Virus record (IMG/VR): IMGVR_UViG_3300045973_000209
Coordinates: 64,001-92,699 of that record
DNA length: 28,699 nt
Direction: 5' to 3' (one strand)
Source of the DNA: a virus
Shown here: piece after piece, positions 10,350 through 26,283 of the stretch
Layout: each line of letters opens with the position of its first letter
Numbering within the stretch: position 1 is the first letter of the stretch
The notes under the pieces: generated by a model
What the model saw: only the letters and a program-made list of their open reading frames with translations
Database searches by the model: none
What the model was told of the DNA's origin: nothing
Made by a program: the position numbers and the translations under genes

Positions 10350-12656
10350 TTAATTTTTATATAAACCTATACTACTTAGAAAAGTCCCTTGTCCTTGTTG
10401 ATAAGTAGGCTTCTTTTTCTTAGCAATATAAGCTAATCTTTCAAATGTTAAAAGCCTTAAAGCACTAATCCTATCAAAGTTACCTTTACTATTATATTGT
10501 TGAAGCTCAAGTAAGGTAGGTAGGTCAGGTATATAATGCAAACGATATACATAGCTACCATCCTCGTTTACATTTATGATAGTATATAACCATTGTTTTA
10601 ATTGTATTATTCCAGTAACTGCATTATCTCCTTCACCAATATAAACACCATATTCATTTACTCCGCCTTCCATAACTCTATTGTTTACAACAGCTAATGG
10701 ATTTTTTATTAATCTATTTACTTTATGCCATACTTTAAAATCTGCAACAACTGTACCTCTATCTGTTTCTGGAAGTGCTTTAGCATTATAATACTCAACT
10801 CCTTTTAATGCTTCAATAGAGCAATCTGTTTGTGAATCATCTCTACGTCCTACATAAATAGCTTGTATACCTTCAGGTACACCAAGATCATTAGGATATG
10901 ATAAAACATAAATTGCATTAAGAGAATTTTTAGTATTAACTTCTTTTATAGTTTTATCTTTACCAACTGTATCTATAACTTCATAATAAAGATTATTTGG
11001 AATTAATCCATCAAATCGTTTTGGTTCATGAAATATTCTCCAACATCCATATACATCATCTTCTTTTCTAAAGGGTACATTCATTAAATATGAATGAACT
11101 TTATCTCCTCTTTTATATAATTCATCATTAGTTTTAAATTCAACAGTGGATCTTTCTATTTCTCCATTTGCTTTTTTAGTAACAACATTTTCAAATTGAC
11201 CTTCTCTATATAATATAGTACTTTGATTTGCTCTAATAAACTTTACATGTTCATCTAATTCAGTACTACTAAATATATTTTCGGTTGAAATATTAAATGC
11301 TTCGCTAGGAGAATTAGCTCTTTGAGAACAATATACAGAATAATCTTCACTAGTTAAATGTCTACGCTTAGCAATTTTATCTTCAATATCAATATTATAT
11401 GATTCAACTAAATAACTATTACCATTAATATCCATATGAGGTTCAAAGTCCCACATCTGTGGATGAAAGAAGCCACAAGTATTATGTCTAAGTCCTTTAT
11501 CCCAGATATTTTCAAAAGGCATCATATTATTAATCTCAGGATGAAAAAACATATTACTAAAAGGAAGCCAGTTTGCACCTTTAGTTCCTCCAGTTCCATA
11601 TGCTCTTATTGTACCTACAGATTCATCACCACTTTCTGTAGAAGATAAAGTAACGTTAACTGTTTCTTGTAAATTAGGAAATACTCCAGATTCTTCAAAG
11701 TCAATTTCAACTGCACCTTTACCAACTACAGCATTTGGATTATCTTTACAAGTAACACTTATTCCACTACTTCTAAATCCATATTTTTTATTACCTGTTT
11801 TACTAAGTTTATATCCAAGTTCAATTGCAGTAAGGTCTTCACTAAGATACCCACGTCTCCAAAATGTATGATTCTCATACCAATCAAGACATTTCTTTAA
11901 CATATCACTAGTAGCACCAGGTTTAGTCAAGAAAGTAATATCCCATGCTGCAAGTACAATAGTAGTACTAGGATTTAAATTCATAGTATTAGCACCTTGA
12001 CTACCTCTCTTATGTGAATATCCTTTACGTCTAGATTTACCTTTACATAAATGATAATTATTTCTAGCTATAAATTCATCAATTTTAAAGTTCCAATAAT
12101 CACCATCCCAGAATCTAGGAAATCCATCTATTCGCTTCTGTTTAAATTTACCTGCTTTATTAAGCTCTTCACGTTCAATTTTAGTAGGTGTACGTTGAAT
12201 ACGCCCATAGTTTAAATAATTATAATGATCACCAGTTATATGTAAAGGATGAAGAAAACTTAATCTTTCTTCATCTGTAGTACATAAATTATATGCATTA
12301 ATATCTTTTCTATAGAGTTTACAAGGAGCAGTCATACCAACACGTCTACGCATTGTTTCTTGCTTCCAAAACATCTTATATCCTATAGTGTCTGGTTTAT
12401 CATTATTATAAAATCTAACACTATCATTTTTTCCACTAAGTTGAAATTTTCTAGCTGCTTGTGTAAAATGATAGGTATTAACAAATATAAAATCAATCTT
12501 CATAAGAAATCCACCAGAATCTCCTACAAGAAAATCATCATCTAAATCAGTATAGTTTTTAGAAGTAGCAGAAGTATAATGAGTTTTATCTTCAAATATA
12601 TAGTCTATAAAAGGATGTAGACCAGGAATATATTTATATACTTCTTGATTAATCAT
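10350..12656 (-). CDS. terL: Terminase large subunit (packaging ATPase/nuclease)
   Basis: 768 residues. The Arg-rich Walker A-like motif is CKGKSRRKGYS (204-214), a form seen in crAss-like terminases. Walker B with catalytic Glu is VEIDFEESG (316-324), and a GTGGTKG coupling motif lies at 354-360. The second half carries the RNase H-like nuclease with an acidic strand (LYYEVIDTVGKD, about 580-590). The enzyme cuts concatemeric DNA and pumps it into the head through the portal. Its start overlaps the stop of a 38-residue gene as ATGA, so the two are translationally coupled. I did not see a separate small terminase subunit in the window. Confidence 0.93.
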   Translation of the reverse strand: MINQEVYKYIPGLHPFIDYIFEDKTHYTSATSKNYTDLDDDFLVGDSGGFLMKIDFIFVNTYHFTQAARKFQLSGKNDSVRFYNNDKPDTIGYKMFWKQETMRRRVGMTAPCKLYRKDINAYNLCTTDEERLSFLHPLHITGDHYNYLNYGRIQRTPTKIEREELNKAGKFKQKRIDGFPRFWDGDYWNFKIDEFIARNNYHLCKGKSRRKGYSHKRGSQGANTMNLNPSTTIVLAAWDITFLTKPGATSDMLKKCLDWYENHTFWRRGYLSEDLTAIELGYKLSKTGNKKYGFRSSGISVTCKDNPNAVVGKGAVEIDFEESGVFPNLQETVNVTLSSTESGDESVGTIRAYGTGGTKGANWLPFSNMFFHPEINNMMPFENIWDKGLRHNTCGFFHPQMWDFEPHMDINGNSYLVESYNIDIEDKIAKRRHLTSEDYSVYCSQRANSPSEAFNISTENIFSSTELDEHVKFIRANQSTILYREGQFENVVTKKANGEIERSTVEFKTNDELYKRGDKVHSYLMNVPFRKEDDVYGCWRIFHEPKRFDGLIPNNLYYEVIDTVGKDKTIKEVNTKNSLNAIYVLSYPNDLGVPEGIQAIYVGRRDDSQTDCSIEALKGVEYYNAKALPETDRGTVVADFKVWHKVNRLIKNPLAVVNNRVMEGGVNEYGVYIGEGDNAVTGIIQLKQWLYTIINVNEDGSYVYRLHYIPDLPTLLELQQYNSKGNFDRISALRLLTFERLAYIAKKKKPTYQQGQGTFLSSIGLYKN

Positions 12657-18270: not shown

Positions 18271-18462
18271 CTGATTGTAAAATATGATATAAAATATGAT
18301 AGAAAGACTTTTACTGATAGGAATGAAAGAGGAATTATAAAGAATGAAATAAAATATGATAGAAGGATTAATAGTGGTAGAGAAGATGGTGTATATAATA
18401 GCGCGTTTGAACCTCCTGATTCATCACCCCCTACTGGTTTTCGACAATGGAATAGCCCGTAG
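18271..18462 (+). other. Coding-like plus-strand frame lacking ATG
   Basis: The frame is open from 18262, with CTG at 18271 the only possible near-cognate start, and runs to TAG at 18460-18462. It would encode about 63 hydrophilic residues with two IKYDR units and a final PPTGFRQWNSP. The last third uses codons rare elsewhere in the window (CCC, CGA, CCG, GCG, AGC). That fits a conserved RNA or foreign segment better than coding sequence. I therefore do not call it a gene. Confidence 0.25.
18279..18360 (+). repeat. Three direct repeats of AAAATATGAT
   Basis: Exact copies lie at 18279-18288, 18291-18300 and 18351-18360. The last two are extended to ATAAAATATGATAGAA (18289-18304, 18349-18364) and are exactly 60 bases apart. 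They sit in the divergent switch region just ahead of the GC-rich leader, so they could bind a regulator or act as origin iterons. Copy number is too low to decide. Confidence 0.5.
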
Positions 18463-18482
18463 TCATTTTCTAGAGCTATTTC
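18431..18482 (+). promoter_or_regulatory. Possible H-type pseudoknot in the leader of the first early gene
   Basis: Stem 1 pairs CUACUGG (18431-18437) with CCCGUAG (18456-18462), with one mismatch. Stem 2 pairs GGAAUAGC (18449-18456) with GCUAUUUC (18475-18482), with one G-U. The arms interleave (stem 1 left, stem 2 left, stem 1 right, stem 2 right), sharing only position 18456, so a compact pseudoknot is possible. It is GC-rich within AT-rich surroundings and ends 37 bases before the ATG at 18520. The fold was assigned by eye. Confidence 0.4.
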
Positions 18483-18519
18483 ACATTTATTAATTTTCTA
18501 AATTTAATTCTTAAACATT

Positions 18520-19047
18520 ATGAAAAAGATTGTAAGAGTGCTCGTGGATCATCTTCGTATTTATCCTGAAGAACGTGAAGTAACTTCAGCTATCAGTAAA
18601 ACCAAAGGGACACGTGCAGGTGCTCTTGTATTGGTAGATCTATTGCCTTGTTCAGAGGGACAGAGTGCTACCAATGCATTACAGTTATCAGGTAAACAAA
18701 TTGCTAATCTTGCTAGTATGCACGGTAATGCAATACGTAGTACTGGTAAAGAGGCTTATATGGATCTCTCAACTTACGTCGGTGTACAGCAGAGTGTTGC
18801 TTCTATTACTTGTGAAGAACATAAGAAAGGTGACAAGTATGTAGATAGTGAAGGTGAGGAGAAAGAGTACACACAGGACAGTACGTCTTACAGTGTTAAC
18901 AGCATTGCTCTTCCTGATAAGATCACTGATAAAGTCGTTGCAATGACTATTGAGAAGAATATTAACTGGAAGACTCCTGATAGTCTGGTCAGTAAACTTC
19001 TTGGTAACATGGTTCCTTCTGCAGTTGAGGGAGTTGAAACCAAGTAA
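18520..19047 (+). CDS. Probably highly expressed early protein of unknown function (175 aa)
   Basis: The protein has a basic N-terminus (KKIVRVLVDHLRIYPEEREV), a beta-like part (GTRAGALVLVDLLPCSEGQ), a helix (LSGKQIANLASMHGNAI), a further beta region with HKKGDKYVDSEGEEKEYTQDS, and a C-terminal helical end (IEKNINWKTPDSLVSKLLGN). GC content is visibly higher than in any other right-arm gene, and codons are host-like (CGT, GGT, CTT, AAG), as in the capsid gene. It stands alone after a long structured leader and ends in a strong terminator. A single-strand-binding role is conceivable, but no acidic C-terminal tip is present. Confidence 0.85.
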   Translation: MKKIVRVLVDHLRIYPEEREVTSAISKTKGTRAGALVLVDLLPCSEGQSATNALQLSGKQIANLASMHGNAIRSTGKEAYMDLSTYVGVQQSVASITCEEHKKGDKYVDSEGEEKEYTQDSTSYSVNSIALPDKITDKVVAMTIEKNINWKTPDSLVSKLLGNMVPSAVEGVETK

Positions 19048-19064: not shown

Positions 19065-19096
19065 GGTGATAGTAACAATACTATCACCTTTTTTTT
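19065..19096 (+). terminator. Rho-independent terminator
   Basis: GGTGATAGT (19065-19073) pairs perfectly with ACTATCACC (19080-19088) across a 6-base loop and is followed by eight T residues. It lies 18 bases after the stop of the 175-residue gene. The gene is thus a single-gene transcript or is strongly separated from the following small genes. Confidence 0.95.
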
Positions 19097-19852: not shown

Positions 19853-19920
19853 TTTATCTATTAGTACTACTATTTAGCGATAAAGCTTATTTAATTACGT
19901 TATTAATACAACTATTTATT

Positions 19921-20262
19921 ATGGTACAACATTTCAGTAAACACAGATTAGATACAGATACAAAGATGTATATAATCGAAGAAGTAAAAGAATTCGTATA
20001 TACATTACTTATTCTTGAAGGCTTTGCAACTATTATAAGTGTAGGTGGTAATGGAAGATTTCAATTCTTATTGAATAGTACATTATATTCATCTACATTT
20101 ACAAAGAATGTATGTTTTGAAAAGGATACATTTGGATTTCATAAAGACGATGATCAATATTATGACTATTCAAAGGTAGTATTTGATCATAATATTGATA
20201 AAGAATGGAATGAATTATATCATTCACATATCAACAATGGTGATTATTGGAAAGAGTTATAA
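19921..20262 (+). CDS. Small hypothetical protein (113 aa)
   Basis: The N-terminal half is helical (DTKMYIIEEVKEFVYTLLILEGF). A GGNGRFQFLL beta segment and an acidic, aromatic C-terminal half follow (FHKDDDQYYDYSKVVFDHN). It starts after ACTATTTATT, a variant of the early start motif. I do not recognise a family. The start is the only suitable ATG. Confidence 0.72.
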   Translation: MVQHFSKHRLDTDTKMYIIEEVKEFVYTLLILEGFATIISVGGNGRFQFLLNSTLYSSTFTKNVCFEKDTFGFHKDDDQYYDYSKVVFDHNIDKEWNELYHSHINNGDYWKEL

Positions 20263-20315
20263 AATCATTAGTATTTAATAGATAACTACTATTCATACTA
20301 TTAATAAATAAATTT

Positions 20316-20483
20316 ATGAAAGTATTTGTTATTATCGCATTATCTATTAATATCTTAGTATATTTAATAGGCATTATATCTACCATTGAAAATGAAGATG
20401 CAAAAGGATTATTAACTGCATCAATCTTATTTATATTAGCAGTAATTGCATTAGTATTTACTTGTGTATCAAAATTTTGTTAA
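20316..20483 (+). CDS. Small two-helix membrane protein (55 aa)
   Basis: It starts KVFVIIALSINILVYLIGII (first membrane helix), then a polar turn TIENEDAKG and a second helix ASILFILAVIALVF, ending TCVSKFC. It fills an otherwise empty gap between two genes and has its own ATG after an AT-rich leader. It is probably an inner-membrane protein expressed early. The function is unknown. Confidence 0.65.
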   Translation: MKVFVIIALSINILVYLIGIISTIENEDAKGLLTASILFILAVIALVFTCVSKFC

Positions 20484-20510
20484 TAAAATTTATTTCTATT
20501 TAATTATAAA

Positions 20511-20521
20511 ACTATTTAATT
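20511..20521 (+). promoter_or_regulatory. Early start motif ACTATTTAATT before ATG
   Basis: An exact copy of the motif that directly precedes five rightward starts (20522, 21085, 21677, 22683, 25897). Near copies lie before 19921, 22039 and 25613. It replaces a Shine-Dalgarno sequence and may act in translation or, as a TATTTA box, in transcription. Confidence 0.55.
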
Positions 20522-21082
20522 ATGTCAAAACATGATGATATATTTAGTCTTGGTAACTTTATAAGTGAACAGACTAAAGCTGGTGGTTTAAATGAAACTA
20601 TCAATGAAATTGTAAAAGCTCTTTGGAATGAATATAAAGAGTTTGATATTAAAACTGATTGTACTATAATTACTGCTGACTTTGGAAGACTTGGTAGTTT
20701 AGTATTTAGAACTGTAGATGAATATGAAGATAATAAACCTTTAATATATAAAGAAGGTTCTTATGATTATATATCAATAATTAGTAAATGTACAAAGCGT
20801 ATTTTATGGACTGATTATAATGATACAGAACCATATAATAGACAATCTGGTTTATATTGTGATGGTGCATCATTTGAATCGTTAGGACATCCTGTTAAAC
20901 AAACTAAAGAATATAGAGAGTTTAATTCAACTATTAATTATATTATTAATATATCATTTGGAGTGTGGGGATATAGTTATAATACATACTATAATTCTAT
21001 TACATTTGGTATATGTATTAAGAATAATAAAGTTGATGAATTTGTTAATAAACTAAGAATTATACTTGGTAAAACTATTTAA
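20522..21082 (+). CDS. Hypothetical early protein (186 aa)
   Basis: An acidic alpha/beta protein: helix ETINEIVKALWNEYKEF, strand TDCTIITADFGRLGSLVFRTVDEYE, then a Tyr-rich C-terminal half (SGLYCDGASFESLGHP, SFGVWGYSYNTYYNSITFGICI). Its last codons (GGTAAAACTATT TAA) lie inside the next gene's start motif, so its C-terminus GKTI is partly fixed by that motif. There is no family I know. Confidence 0.78.
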   Translation: MSKHDDIFSLGNFISEQTKAGGLNETINEIVKALWNEYKEFDIKTDCTIITADFGRLGSLVFRTVDEYEDNKPLIYKEGSYDYISIISKCTKRILWTDYNDTEPYNRQSGLYCDGASFESLGHPVKQTKEYREFNSTINYIINISFGVWGYSYNTYYNSITFGICIKNNKVDEFVNKLRIILGKTI

Positions 21083-21084
21083 TT
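21074..21084 (+). promoter_or_regulatory. Early start motif ACTATTTAATT before ATG 21085
   Basis: An exact copy. The upstream gene's stop codon TAA is embedded in it. Confidence 0.55.
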
Positions 21085-21666
21085 ATGAAACCACATGATA
21101 TATTCAAAGCCTTTGGAATAATAAGTGGTAATTATATTGATTCATATATGAAATCATACGTAAGTCCTATTGATAAAGGTATTATTGGACATGGTATAAT
21201 ATTAAAACCATTAGATATTAAAAACAATCGAGATAAATATTCTCAATTATATCGTAATGATATTAAATTAAATGAGAATATATTTAGATTAGGTGGGATG
21301 TCTAGTGGATTTAATAATAAGTCATATTGTAATCTTATATATTACGGTGTTGATAGAACTAGTTTAATTGACGCTACTACAATTGGACATTCTGGTAATC
21401 ATTGTATCATTGATATAAATGGTGATATTAAATTTATGTCACCTGATACATATGAAAGTGTTTATTATCATCAAGGAGTTATATGTTCTATGAAGAATGT
21501 ATATTATAATCTTCTTAATGGTAAACGTATAATTGAAGGTTCACAAAGTATTAAATCTAAAGATTTTTTATTTGTTGAACATGCTTATGATTGGTATAAT
21601 AAAGATATGCCTTTAGGTGTATATAAGATTAATTGGAATACAGGTGAAATTGAATATTTTAAATAA
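21085..21666 (+). CDS. Hypothetical early protein (193 aa)
   Basis: Gly- and Tyr-rich and mainly beta-like, with segments IIGHGIILKPLDI, FRLGGMSSGFNNKSY, TIGHSGNHCIIDINGDIKFMSP and YKINWNTGEIEYF. The INGDI and NTGEI turns resemble beta-propeller or beta-solenoid turns, but no repeat family is clear. It starts with the same MKPHDIFK/MSKHDDIF style as the gene before (shared H-D-I-F), perhaps an old duplication of the N-terminus. Function unknown. Confidence 0.78.
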   Translation: MKPHDIFKAFGIISGNYIDSYMKSYVSPIDKGIIGHGIILKPLDIKNNRDKYSQLYRNDIKLNENIFRLGGMSSGFNNKSYCNLIYYGVDRTSLIDATTIGHSGNHCIIDINGDIKFMSPDTYESVYYHQGVICSMKNVYYNLLNGKRIIEGSQSIKSKDFLFVEHAYDWYNKDMPLGVYKINWNTGEIEYFK

Positions 21667-21676
21667 CTATTTAATT
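21666..21676 (+). promoter_or_regulatory. Early start motif ACTATTTAATT before ATG 21677
   Basis: An exact copy starting at the last base of the upstream stop. It supports 21677, not an earlier ATG at 21617, as the true start of the KH protein. Confidence 0.6.
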
Positions 21677-22036
21677 ATGGACATAAATACTATTGATCAT
21701 TGGATATTTCTAGTTAAGAGAAAGATTACATTTTTCTTTTATCCTGAAAGAAATAGATTAAGTAAACAAGCTAAACTTAATCGTAAAGTTGCTAATATTA
21801 TTAAAGAATATTTTGAATGTGATCTTGGTGATCGTTCCGTAAGTGTAAGTGTTCTTGGTTTAACTAGAGTTTCTGTAAAAGAGAAAAGGACTATAGTTCA
21901 TATTACTATTGAACTTTATAGACCTGGATTATTTATAGGTAAAGCAGGTAAAACATTTGATGAAATTCAGAATAAGATTAGTAATCATTTTGATAAGAAA
22001 GTTAAAATACATATTATTGAATCTAATCTATTTTAA
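21677..22036 (+). CDS. KH-domain RNA-binding protein
   Basis: 119 residues. The C-terminal part is a clear KH domain: VHITIELYRPGLFIGKAGKTF (74-94) holds the RPG and the GKAG (88-91) GxxG loop, followed by helix DEIQNKISNHF and strand KVKIHIIE (108-115). It is close in style to the KH domain of ribosomal protein S3 (RPG-x-x-IG-x-x-G). The N-terminal half is basic and helical (RNRLSKQAKLNRKVANIIKEYF). It should bind single-stranded RNA or DNA and could target host translation or phage RNAs. The start motif fixes 21677; a longer frame from 21617 overlaps the previous gene. Confidence 0.82.
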   Translation: MDINTIDHWIFLVKRKITFFFYPERNRLSKQAKLNRKVANIIKEYFECDLGDRSVSVSVLGLTRVSVKEKRTIVHITIELYRPGLFIGKAGKTFDEIQNKISNHFDKKVKIHIIESNLF

Positions 22037-22038
22037 TT

Positions 22039-22671
22039 ATGTTTAAAAAATGTAAAGTTATTCTGCTTCCTACTAATAAAGCAGAAAATGCTTTGATATT
22101 ACATAATAGAGGTGTTAATCCTTTAGAATATCATGGTAATAAATATCTCACAAGAGATTATTTAAAGAGTGTTGGTGCTAAAGCATTTCATTTATATATT
22201 ATATCTAATGATGAAATTAATATTGCTGATAACTTTATAGGTTTATTTGATGAAAATAATGGAACAATATATAAAGCAATTAATGATTATCCTTTACCAA
22301 ACACTTGCAAAAAAGTTATTGCTTCTACATATATTTCTTTTCTTAATCTTCCTTCTTTAACTAAAGAACAAATTGAATTATATTGTTCTGAATATAATAA
22401 AGGAAATAAGATTGAAGGAGTAATGGTTGAATATAAAAATATATTTGATCCTGAAGGAATAACTATTATAGATGATCCATCTAGTATAATATCAAATGAT
22501 AATTTAAAACTTAAATTAGTTGATAATCATATCATTATTAAATCAATTAAAACTAGTTGGACTAGAGAAGAAGTAATTGAACTTATGTGGAACATTCGTA
22601 ATATTCAATATACTAGCAATCTTACTAATAATAAAAAGATATTTAATGAATGGATTGAATCTAATTTATAA
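22039..22671 (+). CDS. Conserved gut-phage protein (210 aa), unknown function
   Basis: It belongs to a protein type I recognise from many Bacteroides and Prevotella phages. The order is KVILLPTNKAENALILHNRG at the start, HLYIISNDEINIADNFIGLF, then CKKVIASTYISFLNLPSL, IELYCSEYNKGNKIEGVMVEY, and near the end IIIKSIKTSWTREEVIELM. Family members are annotated as hypothetical and no catalytic motif is obvious. It starts after CTATTTTAATT, a one-base-longer version of the early motif. Confidence 0.83.
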   Translation: MFKKCKVILLPTNKAENALILHNRGVNPLEYHGNKYLTRDYLKSVGAKAFHLYIISNDEINIADNFIGLFDENNGTIYKAINDYPLPNTCKKVIASTYISFLNLPSLTKEQIELYCSEYNKGNKIEGVMVEYKNIFDPEGITIIDDPSSIISNDNLKLKLVDNHIIIKSIKTSWTREEVIELMWNIRNIQYTSNLTNNKKIFNEWIESNL

Positions 22672-22682
22672 ACTATTTAATT
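22672..22682 (+). promoter_or_regulatory. Early start motif ACTATTTAATT before ATG 22683
   Basis: An exact copy. Here the upstream stop (22669-22671) lies just before the motif, so the motif is kept even when it is not needed to supply a stop. Confidence 0.6.
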
Positions 22683-23423
22683 ATGAAAAAATATATTATT
22701 TTATTAGCATTAGTATTATATGGTTGTACAAAACAACCTATTGAGCCTATTTCAAATGATATAAAATTATCTTTTGATTATACTCTTCCTGTTAAATCAG
22801 GAGATATGACTACTAAAGGTAGTTCACTTAGTTATATAAACTTTTATAATAAATATATAGCAACTAAGATACTAACACCAAAGACTTATAATTTAAATTT
22901 TATAAATCTTGATAATAATTTTAGATATGGTGCTAGTGGAATATGGGAAGCACATGATTTAATCTCTATACCTGCAGGTAGATATCATGTAATTGGTGAT
23001 TCTAGAGCAGATGAAGACTGTAGTGATATTTGTTCATTTTTATTTAATGATACTATTACTATTTCATCTGCTACTATTACATTACAGTTAAAAGCTAAAT
23101 ATGCTTGTTCTTTGATTTTACTTGATACTACTAATATTGGATGGACACAGTTTTCAACTACACATCCTAATACTGCTGTTATTGCAGATGGTATGATGAA
23201 AACTGATGATTTATTTCATTCATTTATTAGTGATCAGGTTAATGGATCAAACTATATTAATTATAGTATAGATTTATGGATTTCTAAAAGAGCTGTAAAT
23301 GGTGCTGCTGGTGGTACAGGAATGTCAATATCAATAACTAGTTTTAAATGGGAAACTGGTAAATATTATTATATTGAAAATACTGGTAATACATATGTTA
23401 TTCCAATGATGATAAATAAATGA
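22683..23423 (+). CDS. Lipoprotein, surface or periplasmic (246 aa)
   Basis: The signal peptide MKKYIILLALVLYGC gives a lipobox with Cys15, followed by TKQPIEPISNDIKLSF. The mature part is beta-rich with SIPAGRYHVIGDSRADEDCSD, TITLQLKAKYACSLILLDTTN and a Gly-rich turn (NGAAGGTGMS). The pattern recalls Bacteroidetes fimbrillin-like or related surface lipoproteins. A phage-encoded lipoprotein in the early arm could mask receptors (superinfection exclusion) or alter the envelope. There is no clear surface-export signal (acidic run) after the cysteine. Confidence 0.82.
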   Translation: MKKYIILLALVLYGCTKQPIEPISNDIKLSFDYTLPVKSGDMTTKGSSLSYINFYNKYIATKILTPKTYNLNFINLDNNFRYGASGIWEAHDLISIPAGRYHVIGDSRADEDCSDICSFLFNDTITISSATITLQLKAKYACSLILLDTTNIGWTQFSTTHPNTAVIADGMMKTDDLFHSFISDQVNGSNYINYSIDLWISKRAVNGAAGGTGMSISITSFKWETGKYYYIENTGNTYVIPMMINK

Positions 23424-23426
23424 ATT

Positions 23427-23597
23427 ATGGAAACTCCCAATAAAGATGAGAAAGTAGAATATAAGTGGATAGATAGGTGCTTCACTAGAGATGATCTTGA
23501 ACATGCGTTTAAAGCAGGTATGAATTTTGTTAATGGATCTAAAATAAATTTTAGTACATGGTTTGCAAACTATTTAAAACAACTTAATAATGCTTAA
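23427..23597 (+). CDS. Small conserved phage protein (56 aa)
   Basis: METPNKDEKVEYKWIDR, then LEHAFKAGMNFVNG, and the end FSTWFANYLKQ. The F-KAG-x-x-F plus F-x-x-WF pattern is one that I recognise from small Bacteroides phage proteins of unknown function. The start ATG follows TGAATT, the upstream stop being 4 bases before, and the end overlaps the next gene by 8 bases. Confidence 0.72.
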   Translation: METPNKDEKVEYKWIDRCFTRDDLEHAFKAGMNFVNGSKINFSTWFANYLKQLNNA

Positions 23598-23817
23598 TAT
23601 ACTTATAATTTTAATCGTAATATGTGTTGCTTTTGCATTAACAGAAGCAACACTATTTATTGCTATATGGCAAATACTATTACTAATTAACATGATTCAT
23701 AATCCATATCGCAAGTACCATATATTTGCATTCTTTGGACTATTAACTATGATGGTATTAGTAGTAATAAAGTTCTTTCAACTATTTATTCCATACGCTA
23801 AATTATTAGACTTATGA
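23590..23817 (+). CDS. Small membrane protein (75 aa)
   Basis: Two long hydrophobic segments, LNILIILIVICVAFALTEA (2-20) and IFAFFGLLTMMVLVVIKFF (45-63), with ATLFIAIWQILLLINMIHN between them. It therefore probably has three membrane spans. It starts inside the end of the gene before and ends with an ATGA overlap into the next. Function unknown; an inner-membrane location is nearly certain. Confidence 0.75.
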   Translation: MLNILIILIVICVAFALTEATLFIAIWQILLLINMIHNPYRKYHIFAFFGLLTMMVLVVIKFFQLFIPYAKLLDL

Positions 23818-24113
23818 AAACAATTAATGAACTTCTGATTATTATGCGTGATAATATTGATAAACTTCAAACAGGTTTATGTTTATTATATGATACCTTA
23901 TATTATGATTGTAAACTTATAACTTTAGACGAAGCTATATTATTAAAAAATTACATTAATAATAATGCTCCTACTATAAAATCTAAGTTATTTGAACCTC
24001 ATGATAGTATATACTATTGGCCTGTTGAAGCTAGAGTTGGTAAAATAGAAGCTATTAAACCTAGACTAAGATGGCTTAACTATCATATTAAAATAACTTC
24101 TAAAAAGAAATAA
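23814..24113 (+). CDS. Conserved gut-phage protein with YYWP motif (99 aa)
   Basis: Helical N-terminus (INELLIIMRDNIDKL) with GLCLLYDTLYYDCKLITLDEA, then LLKNYINNNAPT and the signature DSIYYWPVEARVGK with LRWLNYHI. GLC near the start, IT-x-x-E, NN-x-P, YYWP and RxxWLxxHI form a recognisable family of small Bacteroides phage proteins of unknown function. It is coupled to the genes around it. Confidence 0.82.
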   Translation: MKTINELLIIMRDNIDKLQTGLCLLYDTLYYDCKLITLDEAILLKNYINNNAPTIKSKLFEPHDSIYYWPVEARVGKIEAIKPRLRWLNYHIKITSKKK

Positions 24114-24114
24114 T

Positions 24115-24321
24115 ATGAGAAACCTAGAATTAGAAAAAACTCTTTATACATATATAAAAGAGAATGAAACTGAGCATATAGACTTTGTTAATATAATAAA
24201 TGCTTTTCCTAAATATAGTTATATTACATTAATGCAAAGTCTTGTTGATCTTAGAATACATCATAAAATAGAAAGAATTCAACTATTTGGTGGATATCAT
24301 AAATATATGGCATTATGTTAA
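24115..24321 (+). CDS. Small hypothetical protein, winged-helix-like (68 aa)
   Basis: Three short helices (LEKTLYTYIKENE, FVNIINAF, YITLMQSLVDLRIHHKI) are followed by a hairpin (IERIQLFGGYHKYMA). That order would fit a winged helix-turn-helix and thus a DNA-binding regulator, but it is short and the identity is inferred from predicted order only. The stop overlaps the next start by 7 bases. Confidence 0.68.
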   Translation: MRNLELEKTLYTYIKENETEHIDFVNIINAFPKYSYITLMQSLVDLRIHHKIERIQLFGGYHKYMALC

Positions 24322-24608
24322 ACTATATTAAATATCATAAAGAATTTATAGCTTTTTTAAAAGATAATGGAGCATTTCATATGTTTCATAATCATTATGC
24401 TTTAAATAAAAAACTTCCTGAAATAGAAAGAAGATTACCTGGAATATTTCCAATAGATCTTTCTGTTTATTATGAAACTAATGATCCTGTATCGTGGATT
24501 AGTAATGCATTTTGGTGGTCTGGTAAAGATTATGAACTATGGCAAGAATTACATAATAAATGGAATGCAAAATTGGGTGAATTAAAACAAATAGAATATA
24601 AATCATGA
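24315..24608 (+). CDS. Conserved gut-phage protein with WISNAFWW motif (97 aa)
   Basis: The protein starts YIKYHKEFIAFLKDNGAFHMFHNHY and ends DPVSWISNAFWWSGKDYELW, then LHNKWNAKL. FI-x-FL-x-x-x-GA-x-x-x-F and DP-x-x-WI-x-x-AF-x-W are features I know from small phage proteins of unknown function. It overlaps the genes on both sides, within a tight run of coupled small genes. Confidence 0.8.
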   Translation: MLNYIKYHKEFIAFLKDNGAFHMFHNHYALNKKLPEIERRLPGIFPIDLSVYYETNDPVSWISNAFWWSGKDYELWQELHNKWNAKLGELKQIEYKS

Positions 24609-24886
24609 AAAAGCAAATTAAAAGATTAGCAGATAATACTGCAATAAGAAAAGGTATGTATGTGCATACTATTGATAAAGTTAATGATATGTTTGCTGGA
24701 ACAGAACAACAAACATTAAGGATTAAATTAGCATATGAAAAAGACGGAATGTCTCATAGCGGATTACTGGTTGGTGAAGATGATTGTTATACTAATGAAT
24801 TATTATGGTATAAAGTAACTAGTCTTCGTAAAGCAACTGAAAATGAAATTAAAATATATAAAAAGGAACATGAAAAAGCAAATTAG
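24605..24886 (+). CDS. Small hypothetical protein (93 aa)
   Basis: Basic and beta-like: KKQIKRLADNTAIRKGMYVHTI, TLRIKLAYEKDGMSHSGLLVGEDD, and a helical end (ATENEIKIYKKEHEK). The RKGMYV and LLWYKVTSLRKAT order may be an SH3-like small barrel. It is coupled by ATGA to the gene before and overlapped by 17 bases by the lipoprotein after it. Function unknown. Confidence 0.72.
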   Translation: MKKQIKRLADNTAIRKGMYVHTIDKVNDMFAGTEQQTLRIKLAYEKDGMSHSGLLVGEDDCYTNELLWYKVTSLRKATENEIKIYKKEHEKAN

Positions 24887-25208
24887 ACCTTTAATATTTC
24901 TTATAACAGTATTTATCTTTGTAGTAATAACAGGATTGTGTAGTTGTAATTATTATGCATATCCTCATACACCTACTCAAATAGAAACATACTATCATAG
25001 TGAGCCTACTAAAATGACTGCTGAAGAACAGAAAGCCGATAATGAATATCAACTCTGGAGAGCAGAGCAATTATCTAAAGGTATGGAATGTACTGGAAAA
25101 GGTGCAAGAAGTACTGATTTGGATGTTGTTAAAAATATGTCTACTAATCCTAATACTTCTACTAGAATAGATCTTACAGTTAGAAATTCTAATCCGTATA
25201 AAAAGTAA
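24870..25208 (+). CDS. Small lipoprotein (112 aa)
   Basis: I choose ATG 24870 because it gives a clean signal peptide, KKQIRPLIFLITVFIFVVIT then GLCSC, with lipobox Cys near residue 26. It also has AAAAGGAAC ahead as a weak Shine-Dalgarno. An earlier ATG at 24843 adds a second basic stretch. The mature part is polar with TPTQIETYYHSEPTK, AEEQKADNEYQLWRAEQL and a Ser/Asn/Thr-rich tail. It is a second lipoprotein in the early arm. Likely periplasmic or outer membrane; function unknown. Confidence 0.75.
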   Translation: MKKQIRPLIFLITVFIFVVITGLCSCNYYAYPHTPTQIETYYHSEPTKMTAEEQKADNEYQLWRAEQLSKGMECTGKGARSTDLDVVKNMSTNPNTSTRIDLTVRNSNPYKK

Positions 25209-25215
25209 TTCAGTT

Positions 25216-25491
25216 ATGAAACTAGTAATAGCCAAAGTATGTATAGATTTAATAGGTGAAGAATATCTAGAATTTCATGATGGGCGAACAGGTCATCCAT
25301 TCATACTAGATATGTCCATCTGTAAGATTTCTACTAAAGAACGTGCTATTGATTTAGAAGCACAATTTACTATATTATATCCATTTCCAGAATATCGTAT
25401 GGAATCAATGGTTATAATAGAAGAAGAATCCTTATTTGAATTAGTATTTGCAGCATCTAATTTTGCTTCATTTACAATCTTATCAGATTAA
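25216..25491 (+). CDS. Small hypothetical protein (91 aa)
   Basis: It starts KLVIAKVCIDLIGEEYLEFHDG, has the centre HPFILDMSICKISTK and ends in an acidic helix (MVIIEEESLFELVFAASNF). An alpha/beta fold is likely. No known family. It is followed by a 121-base gap with a weak hairpin (TAGCAC 25531-25536, GTGCTA 25547-25552). Confidence 0.7.
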   Translation: MKLVIAKVCIDLIGEEYLEFHDGRTGHPFILDMSICKISTKERAIDLEAQFTILYPFPEYRMESMVIIEEESLFELVFAASNFASFTILSD

Positions 25492-25601
25492 ATTTAACAT
25501 ATTATAGTGTTAGATGTAAAATATTTTTATTAGCACCAGTAAATAAGTGCTATTATCATTACTATTATTCAATAATTTTTTGTATATTTAAACAAATTTA
25601 A

Positions 25602-25612
25602 TCTATTTAATT
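25602..25612 (+). promoter_or_regulatory. Early start motif (one mismatch) before ATG 25613
   Basis: TCTATTTAATT, differing from the consensus only in the first base, after a true intergenic gap. A TTTTG lies about 22 bases upstream, which could complete a Bacteroidetes-like promoter. Confidence 0.5.
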
Positions 25613-25894
25613 ATGAAAGATGATGCAGTTATAATAGAAGGTACAATATTAGTTGCAACAGAAGATCAACTTACTAGTTGTGGTATCTTATATTTAAAGA
25701 AAGGTTCTATTGTAAAAGTAGCCAGATATGTTAAAGATTGGCATGATGATATAAAAGTATTTAGAAATCATGAAGCCGAAGATGATGACAATACTCATTG
25801 GTTAGCAAAAGAAAAAGCTAGATTAGCTACTAATGATGAGATTATTATGTGGGAAAATGATTGTTATTTTATTAATGTTATTAATACTATTTAA
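25613..25894 (+). CDS. Small hypothetical protein (93 aa)
   Basis: An acidic alpha/beta protein with VIIEGTILVATEDQLTSCG, LYLKKGSIVKVARYVKDW, the acidic stretch EAEDDDNTHW and helix KEKARLATNDEIIMW. The KKGSIVKVARYV segment and late ATNDEI suggest a small beta-barrel related in style to the 93-residue protein at 24605 (which has KATENEI), perhaps a distant paralogue. Its end INTI lies inside the next start motif. Confidence 0.72.
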   Translation: MKDDAVIIEGTILVATEDQLTSCGILYLKKGSIVKVARYVKDWHDDIKVFRNHEAEDDDNTHWLAKEKARLATNDEIIMWENDCYFINVINTI

Positions 25895-25896
25895 TT
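25886..25896 (+). promoter_or_regulatory. Early start motif ACTATTTAATT before ATG 25897
   Basis: An exact copy with the upstream TAA stop embedded. Confidence 0.55.
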
Positions 25897-26283
25897 ATGT
25901 GTGAACTTACTAGAATAACTAAACGTAAATCAGCTATTATTTATAAAGCTGTAGAAAAGGATGTTAATGGTAACTATTATTCTTATTTTGCTGGACTTCC
26001 TATAAAATTAGGTAAAGTAGACAGTACTACTAGAATACATACTTATGATAATATTAGAAGTCATACTGGAACGATTATAACAAGTCTTCCTTGTGGTAGA
26101 GATACATTAGCTATTGGAAGAACTATGGGTGTTATTAAATTATCTGTTGTAAAACAAATATTTAATAATAATGTTATTATATTAAAAATGGAAATTGGTG
26201 GTTCTATTGCTGAAGGTATGTGGGATAAAAATCTTGTATTAGCAGGTACTGAAATTATATCATTTAAAGAAGTAAAAATATGA
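25897..26283 (+). CDS. Conserved gut-phage protein (128 aa), unknown function
   Basis: I recognise the type from Bacteroides phages: start MCELTRITKRKSAIIYKAVEKD, YYSYFAGLPIKLGKVD, then GRTMGVIKL and VVILKMEIGG-like segments (here NVIILKMEIGGSIAEG), ending AGTEIISFKEV. Proteins with this order are annotated as hypothetical. It is beta-rich with no enzyme motif. It ends with an ATGA overlap into a membrane protein gene. Confidence 0.83.
   Translation: MCELTRITKRKSAIIYKAVEKDVNGNYYSYFAGLPIKLGKVDSTTRIHTYDNIRSHTGTIITSLPCGRDTLAIGRTMGVIKLSVVKQIFNNNVIILKMEIGGSIAEGMWDKNLVLAGTEIISFKEVKI

Follow-up and report, generated by a model that had tools for sequence, protein, structure and literature searches.

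A near-invariant sequence abuts the start codons of early accessory genes in a crAss-like phage and recurs in its two nearest relatives

Results

An 11-base sequence repeated at start codons

We analyzed the right end of IMGVR_UViG_3300045973_000209, a crAss-like virus record of 92,699 bases. This window of 28,699 nucleotides (nt; record positions 64001-92699) contains an 11-base sequence, ACTATTTAATT, that directly abuts the ATG of several genes. Coordinates are those of the window unless marked as contig positions. Since the two ends of the record share an identical 127 bases (contig 1-127 and 92573-92699), we take the record to be probably complete and to represent a probably circular genome of ~92,572 bp. 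Matches in PHROGs include proteins under the names terminase, portal, and major head protein. Structural genes lie among the leftward genes, and accessory and replication genes run rightward. By terminase, the closest named relative is cr127_1 (Crassvirales, Crevaviridae; 44% identity), and two metagenomic relatives, G001 (76%) and G004 (70%), are far closer. These two were the only relatives with a usable early arm in searches with the KH protein described below, with the protein of gene 21085, with alignments of the first gene and of the helicase, and for TerL in contigs.

Joined to the start codon, the sequence forms a 14-mer (ACTATTTAATT-ATG; ACTATTTAATTATG) that occurs five times on the + strand of the entire 92,699-bp record and not once on the - strand. 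The exact copies, all on the + strand, occupy 20511..20521, at the start of gene 20522-21082; 21074..21084, at the start of gene 21085-21666; 21666..21676, at the start of gene 21677-22036, which encodes a uS3-like KH protein; 22672..22682, at the start of gene 22683-23423, whose product has a lipoprotein-like N terminus; and 25886..25896, at the start of gene 25897-26283. Three further + strand genes start behind variants: gene 19921-20262 (ACTATTTATT, 19911..19920), gene 22039-22671 (CTATTTTAATT, 22028..22038, with the upstream stop codon TAA inside), and gene 25613-25894 (TCTATTTAATT, 25602..25612). An initial annotation of this stretch had listed these exact and near copies, and all are present. 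It was also correct that two copies encode the C-terminal -TI of the preceding gene: in the copy at 21074..21084, ACT ATT TAA doubles as the -TI-stop of gene 20522, at 21082, and the copy at 25886..25896 also encodes the -TI-stop of gene 25613, at 25894.

Compared in pairs, the five exact copies have an identity of 1.00 over positions -11 to +3; outside these positions it is 0.33-0.60, at or near background. Because the identity is limited to this stretch and blastp found no mutual similarity among the motif-bearing genes, paralogous duplication was ruled out as the source of the copies. The genes form a nearly gapless run, and we found no intrinsic terminator between 20522 and 23423.

Confinement to one accessory segment

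The motif or a variant precedes 8 of the 17 starts in the segment from 19.8 to 26 kb and none of the 54 other rightward starts (Fisher p = 2e-6), which assigns it to one accessory segment of ~6 kb rather than to the whole arm. It is also missing from all 34 leftward starts, as the initial annotation had reported. The accompanying claim of a restriction to the rightward arm has to be narrowed, since the motif is found only at ~19.9-25.9 kb. As to enrichment elsewhere in the early arm, which the annotation had named in advance as a test, the motif is absent from the 54 other rightward starts and is conserved in the same arm of the two relatives.

Markov models of order 1 to 5 predict 0.004-0.016 copies of the 14-mer on the rightward arm, compared to the 5 found, and a model built on start contexts elsewhere in the phage predicts ~0.001-0.003 carriers of the 11-mer per 100 starts. 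When three mismatches are allowed, the window holds 25 copies versus 26.3 expected. As this is chance level, we count only exact copies and close variants as signal. The core of the motif, ACTATTTA, was also compared with a simulated null fitted to a genome's own start contexts. It was seen 8 times versus 0.4 expected in this phage and 4 times versus 0.5 expected in G001, and it was not enriched at cr127_1 or crAss001 starts. In this test, automatic gene calling missed both small genes behind the G004 copies.

Two occurrences were the maximum for any start-abutting 11-mer in a panel of 188 other viral loci (3,447 starts), which consists partly of loci retrieved for containing the 14-mer, in a single copy each. 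Across viral contigs, the 14-mer had one copy per locus among the matches listed, and for this reason these copies are probably due to chance. A scan of viral contigs for TAAAACTATTTA-N1-4-ATG gave one copy per stretch among the matches listed. Unbiased discovery of 14-base motifs before the starts of these phages returned mostly generic AT-rich start context plus ATG, and motif discovery in gaps returned mostly terminator arms.

Conservation in the two nearest relatives

In G001, ACTATTTA lies before four likely gene starts, at distances of 2, 3, 2, and 4 nt, and CTATTTA lies ahead of one further start. Two of the three arm copies of ACTATTTA in G004 precede ATG, by 4 and 1 nt. In both relatives, the end of the rightward arm that holds these copies is the same as here. 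The genes behind them mostly differ, and most motif genes have no orthologue at the same place. The orthologous pairs of genes 22039 and 25897 retain a motif variant at the ATG, while the other upstream sequence has diverged; the G001 orthologue of 22039 bears the exact ACTATTTAATT. About 30 nt up to the ATG of 19921 are also conserved in G001, and the proteins encoded behind this block show no detectable homology between the two phages.

Start context and a putative translation signal

Bacteroidota ribosomes initiate without Shine-Dalgarno pairing, and little is known of how Bacteroidota phages single out genes to be expressed strongly or at a given time. In Flavobacterium johnsoniae, A-12/-13 and A-3 are among the measured determinants of this type of translation, and A-6 is favored (PMC6847099). 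In both arms, ordinary starts of the phage show A at positions -13 to -11 and -3. The motif retains A-11 and A-3, and the six bases from -10 to -5 are a fixed CTATTT. A is present at -3 in all five exact copies, at both -12 and -13 in three of them, and at one of these two positions in the remaining two. The motif thus shares A-3, A at about -11 to -13, and the lack of a Shine-Dalgarno sequence with the Kozak-like, A-rich initiation region of F. johnsoniae (PMC6847099), and differs from it in the fixed CTATTT, T-6, and near-identical repetition over unrelated genes. The host sigma box (the -7 box TAHHTTTG) is absent from the motif and was unenriched in the right-arm gaps of the three phages, and a scan for sigma-70-type promoters gave results below shuffled expectation.

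Our best reading, in which we place moderate confidence, is that the motif is a lineage-specific, start-associated signal that would act on the mRNA at translation initiation. The signal would consist of (AA)ACTATTTA, 1-4 nt, and ATG, as found at early accessory genes here and in G001 and G004. It would be layered on the Bacteroidota non-Shine-Dalgarno context and would place a fixed CUAUUU block in the mRNA track, immediately 5′ of the P site. From the sequence we infer that it acts on RNA and that it probably raises initiation on co-transcribed small early genes, or makes this initiation subject to regulation by a factor of the phage or the host.

Action at the level of translation is favored by the lack of a Shine-Dalgarno match and of the host -7 box, by the terminator-free run, and by a conserved block upstream of 25613. 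Because the genes are nearly gapless and no terminator separates them, a promoter for each gene is not needed, and one upstream promoter could serve 20522-23423. As the core ends 1-4 nt from the ATG, there is also little room for a promoter box. The block upstream of 25613 is a 42-nt noncoding sequence (...AAAATATTTTTATTAGCACCAGTAAATAAGT; 25507..25548, + strand) that lies 65-106 nt before the start and is conserved in G001. It is a candidate transcription signal and plausibly a better promoter candidate than the motif at 25613. We also considered ATTAGCAC as a phage-wide promoter. Since this sequence is also common within coding regions, on either strand, our interest is limited to the longer conserved block.

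Several findings weigh against a translation signal. All five exact copies have T at -6, where A is normally favored, indicating that the motif is not simply an optimized host start. Predicted mRNA accessibility at motif starts was no better than at other starts. Some copies are in tandem or away from starts: TCTATTTAATT at 20495..20505 (+ strand) is a tandem copy followed by ATA and no start, another copy is at 19869, and the G001 cluster head has a tandem copy too. Finally, for the orthologous pairs of 23590 and 26953, the core and the ATG are separated by 13-17 nt here and by 2 nt in G001, a longer spacing that a strict start-context signal does not predict.

Alternative explanations

The main rival is that TATTTA is the box of a promoter for the virion RNA polymerase (vRNAP), with transcription starting at or beside the ATG to yield leaderless mRNAs. 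The initial annotation had offered this reading next to a translation signal. Given the terminator-free run, the start context, and the 1-4 nt spacing, we favor the translation signal and regard the promoter as possible, if on balance unlikely. The annotation had referred to the enzyme known from crAss-like phages, and this phage does encode one: a giant leftward protein (contig 25619-43093; 5,824 amino acids) is homologous to phi14:2 gp66 (E 3e-30) and contains GSDFDMD, compared to GSDFDID in phi14:2 gp66. The phi14:2 vRNAP transcribes early genes (PMC10136315), and a conserved AT-rich motif is present at many pre-early start sites of the P23-45 vRNAP (PMC10770324). A leaderless-mRNA promoter is therefore possible, as the phage encodes a vRNAP homologue and the P23-45 enzyme uses a repeated AT-rich motif. 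The tandem copies at cluster heads and an ATG distance that varies between orthologues would also suit a promoter, as would the enrichment of an overlapping word, AAAACTA, at phi14:2 early starts. However, the box would lie only 1-4 nt before the ATG, closer than is usual for two-barrel polymerases, and a promoter would be needed at each of five consecutive, nearly gapless genes. Moreover, among the predicted transcripts of F. johnsoniae that have probable promoters, 87% carry leaders longer than 10 nt, and ACTATTTA itself is unenriched at cr127_1 and crAss001 starts. Compared with the promoters of the P23-45 (gp96; PMC10770324) and phi14:2 (gp66) enzymes, the motif is likewise an AT-rich repeat in the early region of a phage that encodes such a polymerase; it differs in being fused to the ATG.

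A translational operator, at which a phage RNA-binding protein would repress or time the genes by binding the motif at the AUG, seems distinctly less likely. A+U-rich regulatory sites on the AUG do occur in phages: the operators of T4 RegA are A+U rich and unstructured, they include the AUG or lie just 5′ of it, and an upstream UAA may contribute (PMC3014915). The motif is similarly A+U rich, adjoins the AUG, and has UAA inside. However, RegA sites are loosely conserved (PMC3014915), whereas the copies here are near-identical. A search for RegA-family proteins gave no match in the three genomes and none in the control genomes. The sole RNA-binding candidate that we saw is the uS3-like protein, which was not found in G001, a carrier of the motif. 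Even less probable, in our view, is that the motif is a by-product of cassette shuffling, that is, a short sequence shared by the starts of swapped genes without a regulatory role of its own. This would fit the conserved 5′ block before 19921, behind which the two phages have genes that share no detectable homology, and the scarcity of orthologues at the same place. However, relics of shuffling would decay and show ragged ends, whereas every exact copy ends sharply at -11 and +3, and orthologous starts retain variants. Chance, acting in an AT-rich genome with a general start context, could account for the word once three mismatches are allowed; the exact copies exceed expectation several hundredfold and the core exceeds its simulated start-context null, making this explanation extremely improbable.

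A uS3-like protein encoded in the motif cluster

The 119-amino-acid product of gene 21677-22036 (+ strand) matches the N-terminal KH domain of uS3 (profile E 9e-7). Its predicted structure is of low confidence (pLDDT 55), and uS3 chains gave the best alignment (Z 8.4). An orthologue is present in G004 (L168:1487-1834). G001 has the motif, and we found no orthologue there; the uS3-like protein is therefore probably not a required partner of the motif. We found no bS21 gene, and we saw no mention of uS3 in the main text of a survey of virus-encoded ribosomal proteins (PMC6375957). It is conceivable, and we think very unlikely, that infected ribosomes prefer phage early mRNAs because a phage factor, possibly this protein resembling the uS3 N-terminal domain, recognizes ACUAUUUAAUU-AUG. 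If so, translation would be specialized by way of a start sequence specific to the phage, in a host lineage that makes no use of Shine-Dalgarno sequences.

Comparison with start-associated sequences

The closest precedent comes from Cluster K mycobacteriophages, whose start-associated sequence (SAS), GGGATAGGAGCCC, includes an AGGAG Shine-Dalgarno core and is separated from the start by 3-7 bp (PMC3203893). Its function is still untested (PMC12699233). Both SAS and the motif are short asymmetric repeats directly upstream of start codons. They occur in one orientation, or almost so, at non-structural genes of different families, and sometimes have the upstream stop codon inside the repeat. Conservation in related phages on genes of different families, by which SAS is recognized, was also found here. 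The motif differs in consisting of A and T except for one C, in having no Shine-Dalgarno core, in adjoining the ATG, and in belonging to a Crassvirales phage. It is thus SAS-like in manner and, given the differences in sequence, Shine-Dalgarno core, and phage lineage, is not a member of SAS.

Our search of the open literature found no Crassvirales promoters. The early cluster, with a phage-specific and nearly invariant sequence at its start codons, is a ready test case: this sequence would be either a dedicated translation signal in a non-Shine-Dalgarno lineage or a vRNAP promoter tied to leaderless mRNAs. To our knowledge, either would be new for Crassvirales.

Other signals and repeats

An intrinsic terminator-like hairpin with a T tract (19065..19088, + strand) follows gene 18520-19047. 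Similar hairpins with T tracts are found at contig 11113-11208, 12064-12120, and 23626-23737 and at the same places in G001 and G004. In all three phages they end within ~15-40 nt of the following start codon; if the hairpins really terminate, there is little space for a leader. The first rightward gene, at 18520, is preceded by a leader of >100 nt (~18390-18519) that is conserved in G001 and G004 and contains CCCCCTACT, which is invariant in the three phages. The window gave no Rfam match.

Two observations concern other phages. In the early arm of phi14:2 (L170/L171), AAAACTA occurs 11 times within 30 nt before early starts versus 2.9 expected, mostly 10-16 nt upstream, and is possibly a promoter or start signal of that phage. 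Another phage-like record (L045; IMGVR_UViG_3300042569_000831, 39295-40925, - strand) has a start-associated repeat of its own, AAACCTCAAAA(A)C-ATG, which marks five starts in a stretch of 1.6 kb and is absent from the remainder of the 66 kb.

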